This document shows positions 3,490 through 14,534 of a DNA stretch of 14,534 nt, piece by piece. The stretch is taken from NCBI GenBank assembly GCA_903920405.1, contig CAIXMC010000079.1, positions 1 through 14,534 on the forward strand, given 5' to 3'. The stretch comes from an uncultured beta proteobacterium. Its GTDB lineage: Bacteria; Pseudomonadota; Gammaproteobacteria; Burkholderiales; Burkholderiaceae_C. The notes under the pieces are model-generated. The model saw only the letters and a list, made by a program, of their open reading frames with translations, did no database searches and was not told the DNA's origin. Both the position numbers and the translations under genes were made by a program. Each line of letters begins with the position of its first letter. Position 1 is the first letter of the stretch.

Positions 3490-3576
3490 GGATATGGTCG
3501 ATAACAAGTTTCGTATTGAGCCGTCAGAATTGGGATGCAATGCCAGGCACAAATCGTGCGATGTGGCTCAGCCACA
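3490..3576 (+). repeat. Fold-back repeat family B, copy 1 (left half only)
   Basis: Begins GGATATGGTCGATAACAAG and follows the left half of the complete copy at 13804-13960, through GCCGTCAGA, GCAATGC and the apical hairpin TGTGGC-TCA-GCCACA (3562-3576). Similarity then stops, so the right arm is missing. The small hairpin GCAC-AAATC-GTGC (3547-3559) corresponds to GCGC-AAATC-GCGC in copies 2 and 3, a compensatory change. The fragment ends about 50 bp upstream of alaA and so probably lies in the alaA promoter or leader. Confidence 0.75.
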
Positions 3577-6390: not shown

Positions 6391-6432
6391 AAATCGGCCT
6401 CTAACGCCCGTCCCACTTGCGTAGATTGCTAT
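6391..6432 (+). repeat. 42-bp intergenic repeat (family D), copy 2
   Basis: Starts AAATCGGCCTCTAACGCCCG and ends TTGCTAT. It differs from the 7851 copy at only a few positions and is the same length. It lies 29 bp upstream of radA, so it is probably in the radA promoter or leader region. The TATAAA that follows at about 6430-6435 could be a -10 element, but I see no matching -35. Confidence 0.7.
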
Positions 6433-6461: not shown

Positions 6462-7841
6462 ATGGCCCAGGAAAAAACCCAATTTGTCTGCTCAGACTGC
6501 GGTGGCAGCAGCCCCAAATGGCTGGGAAAATGCCCGCACTGCAATGCCTGGAATACACTGATTGAATCTGTGACAGAGAGCGCAGCTCCCACCAAAAACC
6601 GCTTTGCGTCACTTGTAAAAACGTCAGAAGTTGCCATTTTGGGCAACATTAGCGCTGTCGATATGGCACGCACCCCTACCGGTCATGAGGAGCTTGACCG
6701 TGTTCTGGGTGGAGGCATGGTTGAAGGCGGTGTGGTGCTGATAGGTGGCGACCCCGGTATTGGTAAATCTACTTTGTTATTGCAAGCGCTTGATTCCCTG
6801 CAGCGCAGCGGCCAGAACACGCTGTATGTGACAGGCGAAGAAAGCTGCGCGCAAGTAGCTTTGCGCGCACGCCGCCTGGGGTTGGACGGTTCTCAGGTAC
6901 GTGTGTTGGCTGAAATTGGTCTGGAAAAAATCCTCGCCACACTGGTCACTGTTCGCCCTGATATAGCTGTCATTGACTCCATTCAGACGGTTTATTCTGA
7001 TCAGTTAACCTCTGCCCCCGGTTCTGTGTCGCAAGTGCGTGAGTGCGCAGCGCACCTGACTCGTGCAGCCAAGGCCAGCGGTGTGTGCATAGTGCTCGTA
7101 GGCCATGTCACCAAAGAAGGCGCACTGGCGGGTCCGCGTGTGCTTGAGCACATGGTAGATACCGTTTTGTATTTTGAAGGCGATACCCATTCGAGCTTTC
7201 GTCTGGTTCGCGCCATCAAAAACCGCTTTGGCGCTGTCAACGAGATTGGTGTTTTTGCCATGACCGAGCGTGGTTTGAAGGGTGTCAGCAACCCCAGCGC
7301 CATTTTTTTGAGCCAACATGCTGTACCTGTTCCTGGCAGTTGCGTGATGGTTACTTTGGAGGGCACACGTCCCATGCTGGTTGAAATTCAGGCCCTGGTT
7401 GACAGCGGCGGCCCCAGTCCACGACGTTTAAGTGTGGGCCTGGATAAAGACAGACTGGCCATGCTGCTGGCTGTGCTGCACCGTCATGCCGGCGTGGCGT
7501 GCATGGATCAGGATGTGTTTGTCAATGCCGTGGGGGGCGTTCGTATTTCCGAACCCGCGGCCGATTTGGCGGTGCTGCTGGCCATCACGTCATCGCTCAG
7601 AGGTCGCCCCCTGCCACGGGGTTTTTTTGCTTTTGGCGAAGTCGGTTTGGCCGGCGAAGTGCGCCCCGCGCCTCGTGGGCAAGAACGCCTAAAGGAAGCT
7701 GCCAAGCTGGGGTTCAGCATCGCCCTGGTGCCCAAAGCCAATGTGCCCAAAAACCTTAAATCCAAAGATTTTGAGGGGCTGACCATTCACGCTGTGGAGC
7801 GCATTGAACAGGCGATGGAGGTGGTGCGAGGGTTGGAATAA
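6462..7841 (+). CDS. radA: DNA repair protein RadA
   Basis: A cytoplasmic RecA-like ATPase that drives branch migration in homologous recombination and DNA repair. The 459-residue protein has all family parts in order: an N-terminal zinc finger with Cys10, Cys13, Cys24 and Cys27; Walker A GGDPGIGKST (95-104); Walker B IAVIDSIQT (168-176); the RadA-specific KNRFG motif (253-257); and a C-terminal Lon-protease-like domain from about 300, with GEVGLAGEVRP at 392-402. The ATG at 6462 is directly before the zinc-finger region, as in the family. No clear Shine-Dalgarno sequence is seen. It is flanked on both sides by family D repeats and appears to be a single-gene unit, unrelated in function to hom or the signalling genes. 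Confidence 0.97.
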   Translation: MAQEKTQFVCSDCGGSSPKWLGKCPHCNAWNTLIESVTESAAPTKNRFASLVKTSEVAILGNISAVDMARTPTGHEELDRVLGGGMVEGGVVLIGGDPGIGKSTLLLQALDSLQRSGQNTLYVTGEESCAQVALRARRLGLDGSQVRVLAEIGLEKILATLVTVRPDIAVIDSIQTVYSDQLTSAPGSVSQVRECAAHLTRAAKASGVCIVLVGHVTKEGALAGPRVLEHMVDTVLYFEGDTHSSFRLVRAIKNRFGAVNEIGVFAMTERGLKGVSNPSAIFLSQHAVPVPGSCVMVTLEGTRPMLVEIQALVDSGGPSPRRLSVGLDKDRLAMLLAVLHRHAGVACMDQDVFVNAVGGVRISEPAADLAVLLAITSSLRGRPLPRGFFAFGEVGLAGEVRPAPRGQERLKEAAKLGFSIALVPKANVPKNLKSKDFEGLTIHAVERIEQAMEVVRGLE

Positions 7842-7850
7842 TTTACCAGA

Positions 7851-7892
7851 AAATTGGCCTCTAGCGCCCGTCCTGCTTGCGTAGTTAGCTAT
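7851..7892 (+). repeat. 42-bp intergenic repeat (family D), copy 3
   Basis: Starts AAATTGGCCTCTAGCGCCCG and ends TTAGCTAT, nine bases after the radA stop codon. It is followed by CTTTTT (7893-7898), so here the repeat may serve as a weak terminator for radA. The consensus centre as I recall it is a GCTTGCGCAAGC palindrome; this copy has a degraded version. Confidence 0.7.
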
Positions 7893-8001
7893 CTTTTTAA
7901 TAGTAAAAATTGACAAATAAATTCACCTAACTCTTCTCCTGGTATGTATCCATGTTGGCTGCTCCACATCAGTTTGAATCGCACCCGGGTCTAAACGGTT
8001 A
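7893..8001. other. Gene-free spacer between radA repeat and fold-back repeat B copy 2
   Basis: I see no gene or RNA here. A TTGACA hexamer lies at 7910-7915 but has no -10 at a usable distance. The stretch belongs to the 537-bp gap between radA and the signalling module, most of which is repeats. Confidence 0.5.
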
Positions 8002-8145
8002 GGATATGGTCAACAATAAATTGTGCATTTGGCTGTCAGAGTTAAAGATGCAATGCCAGGCGCAAATCGCGCAGTGTGGCCTAACCACATAAGCGATTTG
8101 TAACGACGCAGTGCACCCAAATCCGACGAGACAAATGCGGAACTT
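8002..8145 (+). repeat. Fold-back repeat family B, copy 2 (right terminus lost)
   Basis: Begins GGATATGGTCAACAATAAA and aligns closely with the copy at 13804 until AACTT (8141-8145). There the expected terminal TATTGTTCCATATCC is replaced by an unrelated inverted-repeat segment beginning CAGACCTTCCCGG. The small hairpin GCGC-AAATC-GCGC (8060-8072), the apical stem TGTGG/CCACA (8075-8079 and 8085-8089) and the conserved GCGATTTGTAACGACGCAG stretch are all present. It marks the left boundary of the HDOD-GGDEF/hybrid kinase module. Confidence 0.85.
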
Positions 8146-8343
8146 CAGACCTTCCCGGAATGACCATGAAATGCGGCTGAATTTTGGACAGAATTTAGTG
8201 AAAAATTGTAGTACAGAAAAAAGCACATATAAATCAACGTTTAAAACGAAATGCCAATGTTTGTCGAATGGCTAAATGTCCAATAATAACCAACAAAATC
8301 AATTGGTTAAGTGATGATTTTAACAAAATTCGGGAAGGTCTGG
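8146..8343. repeat. 198-bp AT-rich segment bounded by inverted repeats (family C)
   Basis: CAGACCTTCCCGGAA (8146-8160) is nearly perfectly inverted by TTCGGGAAGGTCTGG (8329-8343), with one extra G in the left arm. The interior is visibly AT-rich compared with both flanks and has no plausible gene. It interrupts the right end of repeat B copy 2, which looks like a later insertion of a small non-autonomous element. I see no clear target-site duplication, and there is no second copy in the window. Confidence 0.55.
8206..8233 (+). promoter_or_regulatory. Candidate sigma-70 promoter for the signalling operon
   Basis: TTGTAG (8206-8211) and TATAAA (8228-8233) are separated by 16 bp in an AT-rich segment upstream of the HDOD-REC-GGDEF gene. 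This would give a leader of about 140 nt. It lies inside the inverted-repeat segment 8146-8343, so that element may have supplied the promoter. The match was made by eye only. Confidence 0.3.
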
Positions 8344-8378
8344 ATTGAGTGAGAAGTTACGACATCCATTATTGAACC

Positions 8379-10235
8379 ATGACCCAAAAGAGCCAACAAC
8401 CGCTACCCAGCCCAAAAGGGGTTGCTCTGGCCATCATGCAAGCCTGCCAGAGGGAGGAAGTGACCGTGCAGGAGATTGCCCGGCTGGTGCAAAGCGATCC
8501 GGCGCTGATGGGGCGTTTGCTGGAGCATGCCAACGCCGCAGCCACGGGCTTACGCCCTTGCGTCTGTGTACAAGACGCGATCAACCGCATTGGCTTGCAG
8601 TCAACGCGCACTTTGGCCTTGAGCTTCTCGCTGATTGACCAGTACGGGCAGGGCAACTGCATCGGTTTTGACTATTCTGGCTTCTGGAGCCAGAGCCTGT
8701 TGATGGCCGTGGCGATAAAGCAGCTTGGTACCCTATTGAAACTCGGCTCTGCCGATGAACTGTTCACCTGCGGTCTGCTGGCGCGTGTGGGCTGCCTGGC
8801 ACTGGCAACCGCCTATCCGGTGGAATATGCAGCCATCCTGGCGCAGGGCGGTGCCGCACCTGCGCTACTGGCCCACGAACGCTCGGTGCTGCTGACCGAT
8901 CACCTGAAAATGTCGGCCCAGTTGCAAGCCCAGTGGGGCATTCCGGCAACGCTGATTGATCCGATAGAGTTCATCGAAGACCCCTCAGCAAGCACGGCAA
9001 CGCACAGCTCACGCGGCTGGATCCTGCTGCAACTGATGCACCTGGTCTGGCGCCTGAGCAACTTCCTGCTGGACAAGTGCCTTGATACGTCACATGAACT
9101 CTCCGAGCTGATCTTGCTGGTGGGCAAGCTGGGATTGACGGCAGAAACCTTTAACGACTGCGTCGACAACATTACCCAGCGCTGGCAAACCATGGCCCAG
9201 CAGCTCAAGGTACAGTCGATTGCCATTGCACCGTTTGCACAACTGGCGCAGGCCCGGGTACGCCCAGATCATGATGTCAACTCGGCTTGGCTGCGGGTGC
9301 TGATTGTCGAAGACGATGACATCATTTGCCACATGCTTCAGACCTGGCTGCAAGACGAATGCCACTACACCGTGCAGACTGCCAGCAACGGCCGTGAGGC
9401 CATGACCATCGCCGCAGATTTCAATCCGCACGTCATCCTGACCGACTGGATGATGCCGGTGATGAGCGGGCTGGAGCTGTGCAAGACGCTGCGCGCCAGC
9501 GAATGGAGCCACAACATTTATGTACTGATGCTCACCAGCAAGGACTCCGATAGCGAACTGATCCGGGCCTTTGACAATGGCGTGGATGACTACCTGACCA
9601 AGCCGGTCAACATGCGCATCCTGAGTGCGCGGCTCAAGTCGGCCTGGCGCTTTGTGCGATTGCGCGATGCCTGGGAACGCGACCATGAGTGCCTGACCCG
9701 CGCCGCACAGGAGCTTGCCCTGACCAATCGGCGGCTGCAGCACGCCGCATTGATCGACCCGCTGACGGAGCTTTACAACCGCCGCGCCGGGAACGCGGCG
9801 CTGACGCAGGCCTGGGCCGCCACCTTGCGCCACGAACGGCCATTGTGCGTGATCAGTTTGGACATTGACAACTTTAAGGCCATCAATGACCGCTATGGGC
9901 ACGCCACCGGCGATCTGGTGCTGCAAAGTTTCAGCCAATGCTTGCGCAGTGCCGCGCGACGCGAAGATATTGTGTGCCGCTGGGGCGGTGAAGAGTTCCT
10001 GTTGATCTGCCCCAACCTGGAGCAGGGCGACGCGGCAATGGCGGCCGAGCGACTGCGCAGCTGCATCGCCGATCACACGATCAAGGTGGAAGGCAAAGCG
10101 CTTCGGGTCACGGCCAGCATTGGCGTGGCCAATTGGCAAGACGGCATCGCCAACCCGGATCAACTGATTGCCCAGGCTGACAAAGCGCTCTACGCGGCAA
10201 AAGCATTAGGTCGCAACCGAGTGGTTACCGCGTAG
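8379..10235 (+). CDS. HDOD-REC-GGDEF response regulator, predicted diguanylate cyclase
   Basis: A 618-residue cytoplasmic protein with three parts. An HDOD domain covers about 8-205 (QSDPALMGRLLEHANAA at 38-54 is typical), followed by a helical linker to about 300. The receiver domain at 305-425 has the acidic pocket E311/D312/D313, phospho-acceptor Asp356 in ILTDWMMP, Thr386 and Lys408. The GGDEF domain at 455-615 has the active-site motif GGEEF (536-540) and the product-inhibition site RxxD (Arg527-Asp530) at the normal five-residue spacing, so it should convert two GTP to cyclic-di-GMP with feedback control. Phosphorylation of Asp356 by the adjacent hybrid kinase's Hpt domain is the natural inference. 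The HDOD part is of unknown role here. No good Shine-Dalgarno precedes ATG 8379; a later GTG would cut into HDOD. The kinase gene follows 61 bp downstream, probably in the same operon. Confidence 0.92.
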   Translation: MTQKSQQPLPSPKGVALAIMQACQREEVTVQEIARLVQSDPALMGRLLEHANAAATGLRPCVCVQDAINRIGLQSTRTLALSFSLIDQYGQGNCIGFDYSGFWSQSLLMAVAIKQLGTLLKLGSADELFTCGLLARVGCLALATAYPVEYAAILAQGGAAPALLAHERSVLLTDHLKMSAQLQAQWGIPATLIDPIEFIEDPSASTATHSSRGWILLQLMHLVWRLSNFLLDKCLDTSHELSELILLVGKLGLTAETFNDCVDNITQRWQTMAQQLKVQSIAIAPFAQLAQARVRPDHDVNSAWLRVLIVEDDDIICHMLQTWLQDECHYTVQTASNGREAMTIAADFNPHVILTDWMMPVMSGLELCKTLRASEWSHNIYVLMLTSKDSDSELIRAFDNGVDDYLTKPVNMRILSARLKSAWRFVRLRDAWERDHECLTRAAQELALTNRRLQHAALIDPLTELYNRRAGNAALTQAWAATLRHERPLCVISLDIDNFKAINDRYGHATGDLVLQSFSQCLRSAARREDIVCRWGGEEFLLICPNLEQGDAAMAAERLRSCIADHTIKVEGKALRVTASIGVANWQDGIANPDQLIAQADKALYAAKALGRNRVVTA

Positions 10236-10296
10236 CGCGATGCACCCACACCCGTCGGGAAAGAGGCGATTGCCAGGAACTGTATAGGAACACCAC

Positions 10297-13200
10297 ATGA
10301 CCGACTGGATTAAAAGAATAAGGCGCAGAAGCATCACCTTGCCCGTGATGGTGCTGATGCTTGGGCTGGGCCTGTCCATCGCTGGCGCCATCTGGCGTCA
10401 ACGTACGATTGATGCCGATGTCCAAGGAGAATTCCAGCGCAGCAGCGCGCGTGTGGCGACGGAGATTGCGCAGCGTTTTAACCGGCCGCTGCAAGGACTG
10501 AATGGCGCCAAAGGTTTGTATGCCGCCAACCATCGGCTCCAGCGTGCGGAATTTACCGCCTATGTCTTGGCACGCGACTTGCCCACTGAGTTTCCCGGAG
10601 TGCGTGGCTTTGGCTTCATACAACGCGTGTTGCGTGCCGACCTGAACGCCTTTATTGCCGCTGATCGGGCCGATCAGGCCCCCGAGTTTGGTAGCCGCGA
10701 GTTGGCTGAAAAGGACCACCCAGACCTGTATGTGATCCGGTTCATCGTGCCTGCGGCCACCAACCATGGGGCGCAGGGCCTCGATATTGGATCCGAGCCG
10801 CTGCGACGCGCCGCCGCCGAGCAGGCTATGGACAGTGGCGAGCCCACCGTCACGGCAGCCATCACGTTGGTGCAGGACAGTCGCAAGACCCCAGGCGTAC
10901 TGCTCTACGTGCCTGTGTATGCCAAGGAAAGCCGTCCCCGTAATGTGGCCGAACGACGTGCCGCATTGATTGGCCTGCTCTATGCGCCGATCGTCATTTC
11001 CGAACTGCTAGATGCCATCCCCGATGTAGCATCCAAACGCCTGGACATCGAACTCTTCGATGCTGCCCCTGCCAGCTCTGGCGGCAAATTGATGTACGAC
11101 TCCGGCAACCCCCACCTGTTGCAACTCAAAAAGGGCAGTTCACCCAGTGTAGGTCACCGTATTTCGATCAAACGGTCGCTCTTGCTGCCAGGGCGCGAAC
11201 TGACCTTGCACGCCAACAGCACGGCTGAGTTTGAATCCACCATCGATCAGACCTCGCCCTACATCGTTTTCGCGGCCGGCGCCCTACTCAGCGCCCTGCT
11301 GGCGATGACCCTGTTCCAGCAAGTCACCGCCCGCAGCCGCGCTGAGACCCTGGCTGGCAACATGACGAAAAAGCTGCGCTACGATGAGGCGCGCTGGCAC
11401 GATTTCTCCCGCAGTGGTTCCGATGGATTCTGGGAGACCGATGCTCAGCACCACTTCTGCTATTTCTCGGAGAATTTTGAAGCAGTCTGTGGCCTCGCTT
11501 CGGGCAAGTTGCTGGGAAAGAGCTACAAGGAAATTATCGAGGTCGATGCTACGCCCGAGGCGATCGCAGCGCACCTCGCCTTGTTGCTCGCACACCAGCC
11601 GTTCAAGGGCTATGAGTACCAGATTCGTGGAGACGACGGCGCGGCGCGATGGATCTCGGTATCGGGCACGCCGCACTTCGATGAGCAAGGACAGTTTGCT
11701 GGCTATCGGGGTACCGGCACGCTGATCACCGAGCGTAAGCTGATCGAAGAACAATTGCGCACTGCCACTTTGGCCGCCGAGACCCACAGTGTGGCCAAGA
11801 GCCAGTTTTTGGCGAACATGAGCCACGAAATCCGCACGCCCATGAACGCCATTCTGGGCATGCTCAATCTGGTGCAGGCCACCGAATTGTCTGAGCGCCA
11901 GTACGACTACATCCACAAGTCTGAGGTGGCTGCGAAGTCCCTGCTGGGCCTGATTAATGACATTCTTGACTTCTCCAAAATTGATGCCGGCAAGCTCGAA
12001 CTCGACCTCCACCTGTTCCGAATCGACCGAATGCTGCGAGACCTCGCGGTGGTGCTGTCGGCCAACGCTGGCAAAAAACCCATCGAAATCCTGTTCAACA
12101 TCGATCTCGATTTGCCTGAGGTGGTGCTGGGTGACTCCATGCGGCTGCAGCAAATTCTGATCAATCTGGGGGGCAATGCCGTCAAATTTACGGCGCAGGG
12201 GCAGATCGTCATCGCCATCCATCGAGTGAATGACCCGGATGCCACACCCGATAGCGTTGACTTGGAGTTTTCGGTGACAGATTCTGGCATCGGCATTGCT
12301 CCCGAACAGCAGGGGCGCATCTTCACCGGTTTTGCCCAGGCCGAAGGATCTACCACCCGCAAATACGGCGGCACCGGCCTGGGACTGGTCATCAGTCAGC
12401 GTCTGGTGCAGGCCATGGGGGGTTCGCTCGAACTGCGTAGCGCGCTAGGCCAGGGCACACGCTTCTTCTTCACCTTGCGCTTGCCGGTTGCAAAGACCAT
12501 TCCCACCGAACTTCAGGAAGTGGCGCGCCAACCCCCGCAACGCTTTAAGGCGCTGATCGTCGATGACAACCCGGTGGCGCGCGAACTGATGCAACGCATG
12601 ACCAGCCAGTGGACCTCAACTTGCGAAGTGGCCAGCAGTGGGGAGCAGGCACTGGCGCTGATGCGCCAGGCCAGCGGCTTTGGATCAGCGCCGTTTGAGG
12701 TGATCTATCTGGACTGCCTGATGCCGGGCATTGACGGCTGGGAAACGGCCAAGCACTTGCGCGCCATCAGTGCCGAACATCCGGGACCCAAACCAGTCAT
12801 CATCATGGTGACTTCCGCCGGGCGTGACATACTGGGCACCCGCACCGCAGAAGAACAGGATCTGTTCGATGGCTTCCTGGTCAAGCCGGTTACCGCTTCG
12901 ATGCTGCTCGATTCCATCGTCGATGCCAAGTCGTCGGTGCCGCGTGTGCGCCAGATGGCACGCAATGTCTCCTGCAAACGCAGCCTGACCGGAATGCGCA
13001 TTCTGGTGGTGGAGGACAACCTGATCAACCAGCAAGTGGCTGAAGAATTGCTGAGTGCACAGGGCGCTCTGGTGTCGATGGCAGCCAATGGTCAGTTGGG
13101 TGTGGATGCGGTGGCTGCCGCCGTTCCGCAATTTGACGCGGTGCTGATGGATGTGCAAATGCCAGTGATGGACGGCTACGCGGCCACCTGGGCCATTCGC

Positions 13201-13803
13201 AATACGCTGAACTTTGTCGATTTGCCCATCATCGGCCTGACCGCCAACGCCATGGTCTCGGATCGCGCTGCCTGTCTGCAGGCCGGCATGAACGAGCACG
13301 TCGGCAAGCCGTTTGACTTGCCACAGTTGGTGTCCACGCTGATTCGCCTAACCGGCTGGACGACCGTGGCAGGTGAAGTGGCCACCCGTGCAGCGGGCGA
13401 CACCCAGGCTGGCACGGTGAACTTCAAGTCTGATGCCATTGACCTCGGGCCCGCCCTGGAGCGCATGGCCGGCATGAAGTCGCTGTACCTGCGTGCCGCC
13501 CTGGAGTATCAAAAATCCATGGCGACCCTGGCCAGTCGCCTTGCAGCACTGGTGGATGCGGGCGATTTCAACCAGGCTGGCATGCTCGCGCATAGCAATA
13601 AGGGCACCGCCGCCACGCTCGGTCTGGAGCGGCTGTCTGCGGAATTGAAAGACATAGAACTGGCTTGCAAGGCCGAAACCGCCGTGCTCGGTGCGGCGCG
13701 GGTTGCTGCCCTGTCGGCACTTGTCGATGCCGCCAGCCGGGGTCTGGACGGCGCCATGGCCCTGCTGGGTTCGTCTCAGCAAACGGAAAAAATCGTACGC
13801 TAA
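10297..13803 (+). CDS. CHASE-PAS hybrid sensor histidine kinase with two receivers and Hpt
   Basis: An inner-membrane phosphorelay sensor of 1168 residues. A membrane helix (about 13-33) leads to a periplasmic CHASE-type domain (about 60-300, with [16 protein letters not shown] at 63-78), then a second helix (about 321-341). A PAS domain follows (about 368-480), then HisKA with phospho-acceptor His510 in [11 protein letters not shown]. The ATPase domain has the N-box around Asn623-Asn627, DSGIGI (662-667) and GGTGLGL (691-697). Receiver 1 is complete (D756/D757, Asp806, Thr839, Lys863), as is receiver 2 (E906/D907, Asp952, Thr982, Lys1004). The C-terminal Hpt domain carries His1099 in LAHSNKG. 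All phosphotransfer residues are intact. ATG 10297 has AGGA (10286-10289) seven bases upstream. The ligand is unknown. The stop TAA (13801-13803) lies within the outer symmetric edge of repeat B copy 3. The likely phosphorelay target is the upstream HDOD-REC-GGDEF protein. Confidence 0.94.
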
Positions 13804-13960
13804 GGATATGGTCAATAATAAGTTCCCCATTTGGCCGTCAGAGTTGGGAGGCAATGCTAGGCGCAAATCGCGCGGTGTGGCCATGCCACATAAGCGATTT
13901 GTAACGACGCAGTGCACCCAAATCTGACGAGCCAAATGCACAACTTATTGTTCCATATCC
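13804..13960 (+). repeat. Fold-back repeat family B, copy 3 (complete, 157 bp)
   Basis: GGATATGG...CCATATCC forms the ends. The perfect symmetry extends out to CTAAGGATATGG (13800-13811) against CCATATCCTTAG (13953-13964). The whole element is an imperfect palindrome: CAATAATAAGTT, CATTTGGC, CGTCAGA, TTGGG and CAAATCGC in the left arm each have an inverted partner in order in the right arm. The apex is TGTGGC-CAT-GCCACA (13876-13890). A local hairpin GCGC-AAATC-GCGC (13861-13873) competes with the long-range pairing of CAAATCGC (13864-13871) to GCGATTTG (13894-13901). There is no coding potential. It reads as a MITE-like or structured-RNA repeat and occupies nearly all the space between the kinase and tolA. 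Confidence 0.88.
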
Positions 13961-13972
13961 TTAGTTCACACC

Positions 13973-14534
13973 ATGCACCAAAGCGCTGAACGGCTTGAAT
14001 TTGCGCCACCTGCCACCTCGGGTATATTGCGTGCGTTGATATTGGCGATTCTTGCGCATGGCCTGTTGCTGGTGGCATTGACGTGGGGGGTACATTGGCA
14101 GCGCGATGCGCAAGTGATCAGCGTCGAGGCCGAACTGTGGTCTGCCGTGCCACAAGAAGCAGCACCGCCAGCCCCAGAGCCGCTTGTACCAGATTTAGCC
14201 CCACTTGAAGAAACCCCGCCATCCCCAGAACCATCTGACGTTGATATTGTCCAGGAACAGGAAAAATTGCACCGGCAAAAGCAAAGGGCGATTGAAGCCA
14301 TGCACGACAAGAAATGGCAACAACAAAACAAGTTGGCAAATGCCAAGCAAGAAAAACTCGAAAAGCAGAAACAGGCAGAACAAGCACGCCAGGCTGCTAC
14401 AGCCAAGAAAAGTACAGCACTTGACTCTAAACAACTCGAAGCCCTGCATCAAGATCAAATACAACGCTCATTGGGCATGGCGGGTTCAGCCGGATCGGCC
14501 AATGCCACAGGCACAGCACAAAAGTCATACGGAC
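13973..14534 (+). CDS. tolA: TolA, cell-envelope integrity protein (3' end outside window)
   Basis: The frame is open from ATG 13973 to the window end (187 complete codons). The N-terminus MHQSAERLEFAPP, a membrane helix at about 17-40 (ILRALILAILAHGLLLVA), a conserved WSAVPQ segment, a Pro/Glu-rich stretch and then a long Gln/Lys/Glu/Ala-rich helical region form the TolA layout of betaproteobacteria. TolA links the TolQ-TolR inner-membrane motor to TolB and Pal at the outer membrane and is needed for envelope stability and constriction; its C-terminal domain III is off the window. The start is 12 bases past repeat B copy 3, and no Shine-Dalgarno is obvious in TTAGTTCACACC. tolQ and tolR, usually just upstream, are absent here; the hybrid kinase gene is in their place. 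Confidence 0.9.
   Translation, partial: MHQSAERLEFAPPATSGILRALILAILAHGLLLVALTWGVHWQRDAQVISVEAELWSAVPQEAAPPAPEPLVPDLAPLEETPPSPEPSDVDIVQEQEKLHRQKQRAIEAMHDKKWQQQNKLANAKQEKLEKQKQAEQARQAATAKKSTALDSKQLEALHQDQIQRSLGMAGSAGSANATGTAQKSYG

Follow-up and report, generated by a model that had tools for sequence, protein, structure and literature searches.

A probably acquired two-gene phosphorelay module lies between copies of an abundant miniature element in an uncultured beta proteobacterium

In a 14,534-nucleotide stretch of DNA from an uncultured beta proteobacterium (hereafter referred to as the window), two copies of a fold-back repeat stand in the same orientation around a pair of predicted signalling genes. 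This arrangement raises the question of whether the pair arrived as cargo moved between two small non-autonomous elements, or by recombination at the repeats, as an earlier reading of the sequence without database searches (the sequence-only reading) had proposed, or whether the bracketing has another origin. We found that the repeat, family B, is a miniature inverted-repeat transposable element (MITE) of about 160 bp that is dense in this genome, that horizontal acquisition of the gene pair is supported, and that its bracketing is unremarkable. The account that we regard as probable is that a MITE-dense host acquired the pair, that the right-hand repeat (copy 3) is a join of two MITE copies and that the bracketing is a by-product of MITE density. 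The features on which the argument turns are as follows.

3490–3576, + strand: MITE family B copy 1, only the left 88 of 160 positions (profile match, positions 1–88)
6462–7841, + strand: radA (TIGR00416, 608.6 bits; cut-off 403.05)
8002–8145 (7999–8145 with the left flank TTA), + strand: MITE family B copy 2, profile positions 1–144 of 160, right end missing after ...GGAACTT
about 8146–8345, + strand: second repeat family with ends CAGACCTTCCCG / CGGGAAGGTCTG, either adjoining copy 2 or nested inside it (terminal inverted repeat and genome matches)
8379–10235, + strand: HDOD-REC-GGDEF response regulator/diguanylate cyclase, 618 amino acids (Pfam PF08668, PF00072, PF00990)
10297–13803, + strand: hybrid histidine kinase, CHASE-PAS-HisKA-HATPase-REC-REC-Hpt, 1168 amino acids (Pfam)
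13804–13960 (13801–13963 with the flanks TAA left and TTA right), + strand: MITE family B copy 3, profile positions 1–160, a putative join of two copies
13973–14534, + strand: second tolA (tolA2), starting directly behind copy 3 and truncated by the contig end (86.5% nucleotide identity to the tolA of contig C55)

A profile built from 18 copies (160 positions) detected three copies of the repeat, each on the + strand of the window, and together with the Pfam assignments it bore out the layout of copies 2 and 3, in the same orientation, around the HDOD-REC-GGDEF and hybrid-kinase genes. The repeat has terminal inverted repeats and no coding capacity, and copy 3 folds into a single long hairpin (−90 kcal/mol, z −12) that none of 200 shuffles equalled. 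To count copies, we searched the whole assembly (G000; 458 contigs, 2,676,837 bases, completeness 89.81, contamination estimate 4.17%) with a 21-nt MITE end, allowing up to 3 mismatches. The end gave 187 forward and 186 reverse matches (373), while the reversed end, used as a control, gave none on either strand; as a full copy has two ends, the genome holds roughly 190 copies or more. Among 38 copies with readable flanks, most of them picked as best matches rather than at random, 32 were flanked left and right by the identical TWA triplet (TTA in 18, TAA in 14), as in a target duplication, 2 had swapped TWA triplets and 4 had a non-TWA flank. Such 3-bp TWA duplications are reminiscent of IS5-type or Harbinger-type elements. 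Related copies were present in the own genome and 11 of 35 congener genomes, whereas none of the 24 genomes from other genera in the same order had one; these genomes together made up our 60-genome sample. Family B had no match in 72,556 plasmid records, and its 23-nt core had none in viral contigs. The only transposase family searched for as a possible autonomous parent, PF01609, occurred at one place in the assembly, with no MITE ends in the 2,153 bases fetched there.

Family B is a further member of a known bacterial kind. As described in PMC2229807 and PMC6382973, the Correia/NEMIS, RUP and MITEAba12 elements are likewise shorter than 200 bp, non-coding and mostly intergenic, with terminal inverted repeats, target duplications and a strong hairpin; bacterial MITEs in general are usually located between genes (PMC2229807). 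Family B differs from them in its 3-bp TWA duplication, since most repeats in PMC2229807 are given 5′-TA-3′ termini and MITEAba12 has 9-bp duplications. Its sequence is also unlike theirs and was found only in this genus among the 60 genomes. A literature search on MITE together with Rhodoferax found nothing.

We also looked at where open reading frames (ORFs) stand relative to the MITEs. In 6 of 27 copies (L103, L013, L022, L024, L020 and window positions 13801–13803), the end of a frame coincides exactly with the TWA flank, the stop codon lying within the target triplet or at its edge. In 5 of 27 (L007, L016, L018, L021 and L028), a frame enters the MITE and stops inside it; in both groups some frames are perhaps not genes. 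The MITE flanks at L008, L020 and L029 read GGCTTCCCAC or GTGGGAAGCC, which suggests insertion into another palindromic repeat.

How much the bracketing means depends on this density. Under a Poisson model that assumes about 190 copies and was calculated post hoc, any one copy has a neighbouring copy within 5.8 kb with a probability of about 0.34, a value that is halved if the same orientation is required, and the probability of at least three copies in a 14.5-kb stretch is about 0.086. Bracketing is therefore unremarkable and expected by chance, because the repeat is so dense genome-wide. The sequence-only reading had itself named such density as one finding that would refute its proposal, and by that measure the bracketing calls for no particular explanation. 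In the account that we favour, a genome with some 190 or more MITEs that insert at TWA triplets, frequently just where a gene ends, would produce bracketed genes without moving them as a unit. The competing idea is a composite transposon: a transposase would have mobilised the whole 6-kb segment, with copies 2 and 3 serving as its two ends. Their shared orientation and the outermost flanks, TTA and TTA, agree with it, as do the foreign composition of the module (see below) and the MITE-flanked resistance segments described in PMC6382973. With only two target types, however, outer flanks of TTA and TTA arise about 1 time in 2 by chance. The lack of plasmid and viral matches and the single PF01609 place without these ends also speak against a composite transposon.

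At the left edge, copy 2 is preceded by the flank TTA at 7999–8001, and its last 16 profile positions are absent. At 8146 a different repeat starts, whose ends CAGACCTTCCCG and CGGGAAGGTCTG form a terminal inverted repeat, and the HDOD gene begins only at 8379. Because the second repeat family begins at 8146, copy 2 does not abut the module. The earlier placement of the repeats exactly at the module's outer edges thus holds only for the right side, with the kinase stop codon as the flank of copy 3, and fails on the left. The second family had 15 further genome matches at E ≤ 1, several of them partial, 11 of which lay at E ≤ 0.002 with 66–86% identity. We envisage that copy 2 was an ordinary MITE insertion, later damaged beside this other repeat; for a composite transposon, the loss of the inner end beside another repeat is awkward. 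A candidate remnant of the right end of copy 2 at the gene start (ATTATTGAACCAT) was set aside as suggestive only, since 18 of 2000 shuffles scored equally.

We then asked whether the gene pair itself is foreign. The sequence-only reading had judged by eye that the module is more GC-rich than its neighbours, and the computed values agree: 0.600 and 0.598 for its two genes against 0.519–0.558 for the five genes to the left, the first of which is truncated by the contig start. The GC content at third codon positions (GC3) was 0.743 for the HDOD gene and 0.713 for the kinase gene, above the mean of 0.546 (SD 0.050, range 0.438–0.650) of 33 other ORFs of the assembly, most of which adjoin MITEs. 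None of the genus's 88 other genomes had an orthologue of the HDOD-REC-GGDEF protein at E ≤ 1e-140, with 14 first-look candidates scored per genome, and at this limit the own genome had no second copy; a relative in genome G025 (39% identity, 5.5e-131) fell short of this limit. The kinase had only paralogue-level relatives, at E ≤ 1e-150, in 15 of the 60 genomes, the own genome included, the best-scoring of which matched residues 381–1127 with 47% identity and lacked the CHASE part. Horizontal acquisition of the module is supported by this atypical GC3 together with the absence from the 88 other genomes. The claim of acquisition as a cargo unit thus survives in its first half, whereas repeat density, the missing end of copy 2 and the displaced second tolA tell against the cargo. 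In our account, the pair would have entered the lineage from a higher-GC bacterium.

Alternatively, the pair could be ancestral, lost in the rest of the genus, and could owe its GC3 to selection. Homologues do occur widely among betaproteobacteria, some of them in sequences named Rhodoferax with 65% identity or less; such names among the matches suggest a Rhodoferax-like host. Besides the 0 of 88 result, this explanation has to face two kinase relatives in the same assembly with GC3 of 0.555 and 0.553, far below the module's kinase gene; a congener's kinase gene has 0.707. We consider ancestry improbable. The data fit a recent arrival from a higher-GC relative, the date being left loose by two near full-length homologues of the HDOD protein, P0002 (88%) and P0003 (81%), in unplaced contigs. 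On plasmids, the HDOD protein matched only 3 records, at 34.9–39.7% identity, so that no close plasmid carrier was found.

Pairs of this kind recur elsewhere. Of 59 loci found by protein search, 19 were checked for a kinase, 17 of them (L131–L147) with long matches to the HDOD protein. A kinase core stood in the same fetched stretch at 14 of the 17; the exceptions were L137 and L138, without a kinase core, and L136, with the receiver part only at a contig end. In these stretches, the HDOD-REC-GGDEF protein and a kinase form a recurrent kind of pair in which the kinases differ. All the phosphorelay and cyclase residues sought were present, namely the GGEEF, RxxD and receiver Asp of the HDOD-REC-GGDEF protein and the phospho-acceptor residues of the kinase. 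From domains and residues we infer an ordinary two-gene phosphorelay for cyclic di-GMP, in which phosphate would travel from the membrane CHASE-PAS hybrid kinase, via its two receivers and Hpt domain, to the receiver of the HDOD-REC-GGDEF protein and so switch on that protein's diguanylate cyclase. With REC plus GGDEF, GGEEF and RxxD, this protein resembles PleD-like receiver-GGDEF cyclases and HDOD-GGDEF proteins; it differs in having an HDOD domain N-terminal to the receiver, and the PleD model scores 261 against a cut-off of 474 bits.

At the right edge, the kinase stop codon TAA (13801–13803) doubles as the 3-bp flank to the left of copy 3. The flank to the right is TTA, which makes copy 3 one of the only 2 swapped copies among the 38. 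Behind it lies a tolA that is not the one of the tol operon. When the tolA region of C55 was used as query, the assembly yielded just two tolA places, plus two matches of about 30 bases, and the gene order tolQ-MITE-tolR-tolA stands on contig C55, whereas tolA2 adjoins no tolQR. What the sequence-only reading took for a housekeeping tolA beside the module is thus this second tolA. Homology of tolA2 to C55 tolA begins 6 bp beyond the right TTA, at 13969. Between tolR and tolA, C55 has TTAG, 8 nt and a duplicated ATGCACC; the window has TTAG, 8 nt and ATGCACC, with 4 of the 8 nt in agreement, and so reads like a tolR stop codon with tolA behind it. No MITE was found at the tolR-tolA loci of 13 relatives. 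These observations suggest that the left half of copy 3 came from a MITE at the kinase stop (a TAA site) and the right half from a MITE at the tolR/tolA junction (a TTA site). A composite transposon sits poorly with a right flank that resembles a tolR-tolA junction when its left flank is no tolR end. The unlike ends of copy 3 were rejected as proof of recombination, since L207, with concordant TWA, also has unlike ends. The C55 MITE (L200 1810–1969) lies between tolQ and tolR and has the tolQ stop codon as its flank.

The join could have been made by a metagenome assembler crossing the shared repeat or by recombination in the cell, two routes to the same structure. In the former case, the contig would jump at copy 3 into a MITE between tolR and tolA of a co-occurring sister lineage. 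The divergence of tolA2 from C55 tolA (86.5% DNA identity, dN 0.076, dS 0.20) fits this, and because dN is low relative to dS, tolA2 is under constraint, like an orthologue. The searched data contain other tolA variants, P0122 and P0166, the latter carrying the tolA C-terminus and identical to tolA2 over the shared 78 residues. The contig ends 571 bp past copy 3, the left 136 bp of which are 99% identical to two contig ends; elsewhere in the assembly, contigs end inside a MITE at L193, L198, L200, L201, L205 and L206. The bin has a single tolR, on C55, the other TolR/ExbD matches (C68 and C9) being 31–32% identical to C55 TolR with no tolA match beside them in the 4 kb fetched, and the contamination estimate of 4.17% likewise favours this route. 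On the other side, the 32 of 38 concordant copies indicate that most MITE crossings examined here are sound, and the GC3 of tolA2 (0.48) suits this genome. We rate such a chimera as quite possible, if short of probable.

Ectopic recombination between MITEs in a living cell would instead make both the kinase-tolA2 junction and the second tolA real. It accounts for the swapped TWA and the displaced tolA2, could draw on the roughly 190 similar copies, and is in keeping with radA adjoining genes not seen beside radA in 20 relatives. It is harder to reconcile with the absence of a second tolR from the bin and of any known reciprocal junction, and for a recent duplication the tolA copies, which differ by 14% in DNA, lie rather far apart; we find this route rather unlikely. 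Recombination at the repeats, the other half of the earlier proposal, thus suits copy 3, where it would have joined the kinase end to tolA, and nothing shows that it imported the module.

Several observations weigh against the account that we favour. The TAA/TTA difference could come from a single point mutation, and the tolR-stop interpretation draws on a short stretch (TTAG, 8 nt, ATG) with that 4-of-8 match. The other half of a reciprocal junction is not known, the 3′ end of C55 tolR having no MITE, although no search was aimed at a reciprocal product. For the acquisition step, P0002 and P0003 mean that unsampled sister lineages may have had the module for longer than its composition implies.

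The sequence-only reading had called for a comparison of the radA and tolA loci in relatives. A search of the 60 genomes matched radA in 58, the own genome included (weakly in G009 and partially in G027). The radA stretches fetched from 20 congeners, two of which (L078 and L090) reach less than 1.3 kb downstream, contained neither hom nor tolA, so there was no empty radA-tolA site to compare. Many of the 20 share a common radA neighbourhood that differs from the window's. An aminotransferase gene precedes hom in all 13 genomes with a strong hom match (of 14), the own genome included, and in the downstream stretches of these 13, each up to 1.5 kb long, radA follows hom only in the window. The hom-radA adjacency is itself unusual. 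The composite transposon also lacks, then, a radA-tolA junction among 20 relatives, and neither an empty site nor a second location turned up in the 88 genus genomes, the 20 radA stretches or the own genome; taken together, the evidence makes it very improbable. In Acinetobacter, pairs of MITEs around class 1 integrons, and MITE-297 pairs, similarly enclose non-MITE genes between two MITEs (PMC6382973). Unlike them, the present pair has one copy without an end and one with discordant flanks, in a genome with about 190 copies, and no other instance of the two-MITE-plus-module unit was found.

An abundant MITE family can thus easily mimic a mobile cassette. Genome-wide density, agreement of the target duplications copy by copy and paralogy of the neighbouring genes offer a cheap test of any repeat-bracketed "cargo". 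If copy 3 truly recombined in the cell, one could count rearrangements by their TWA flanks even in a genome for which metagenomes are the sole source. A bolder version, which we doubt, is that MITE-MITE recombination builds new gene neighbourhoods here, that it placed a foreign phosphorelay beside a spare tolA maintained by selection, and that discordant TWA flanks are its genome-wide record.

Some minor features remain. A search of the window against Rfam gave no match at gathering scores. In three congeners with related MITEs (G021, G023 and G020; L072, L074 and L077), the genes downstream of radA cluster with those of no other relative, whereas many others share one set of genes behind radA; the MITE carriers G010, G022, G024 and G031 keep this set, leaving no clear link to MITEs. 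Finally, radA is itself bracketed by a 42-nt direct repeat, further copies of which occur at loci L005, L103 and L194 of the own genome:

6391–6432, + strand: 42-nt repeat upstream of radA, 86% identical to 7851–7892
7851–7892, + strand: second unit of the 42-nt repeat, downstream of radA, 86% identical to 6391–6432

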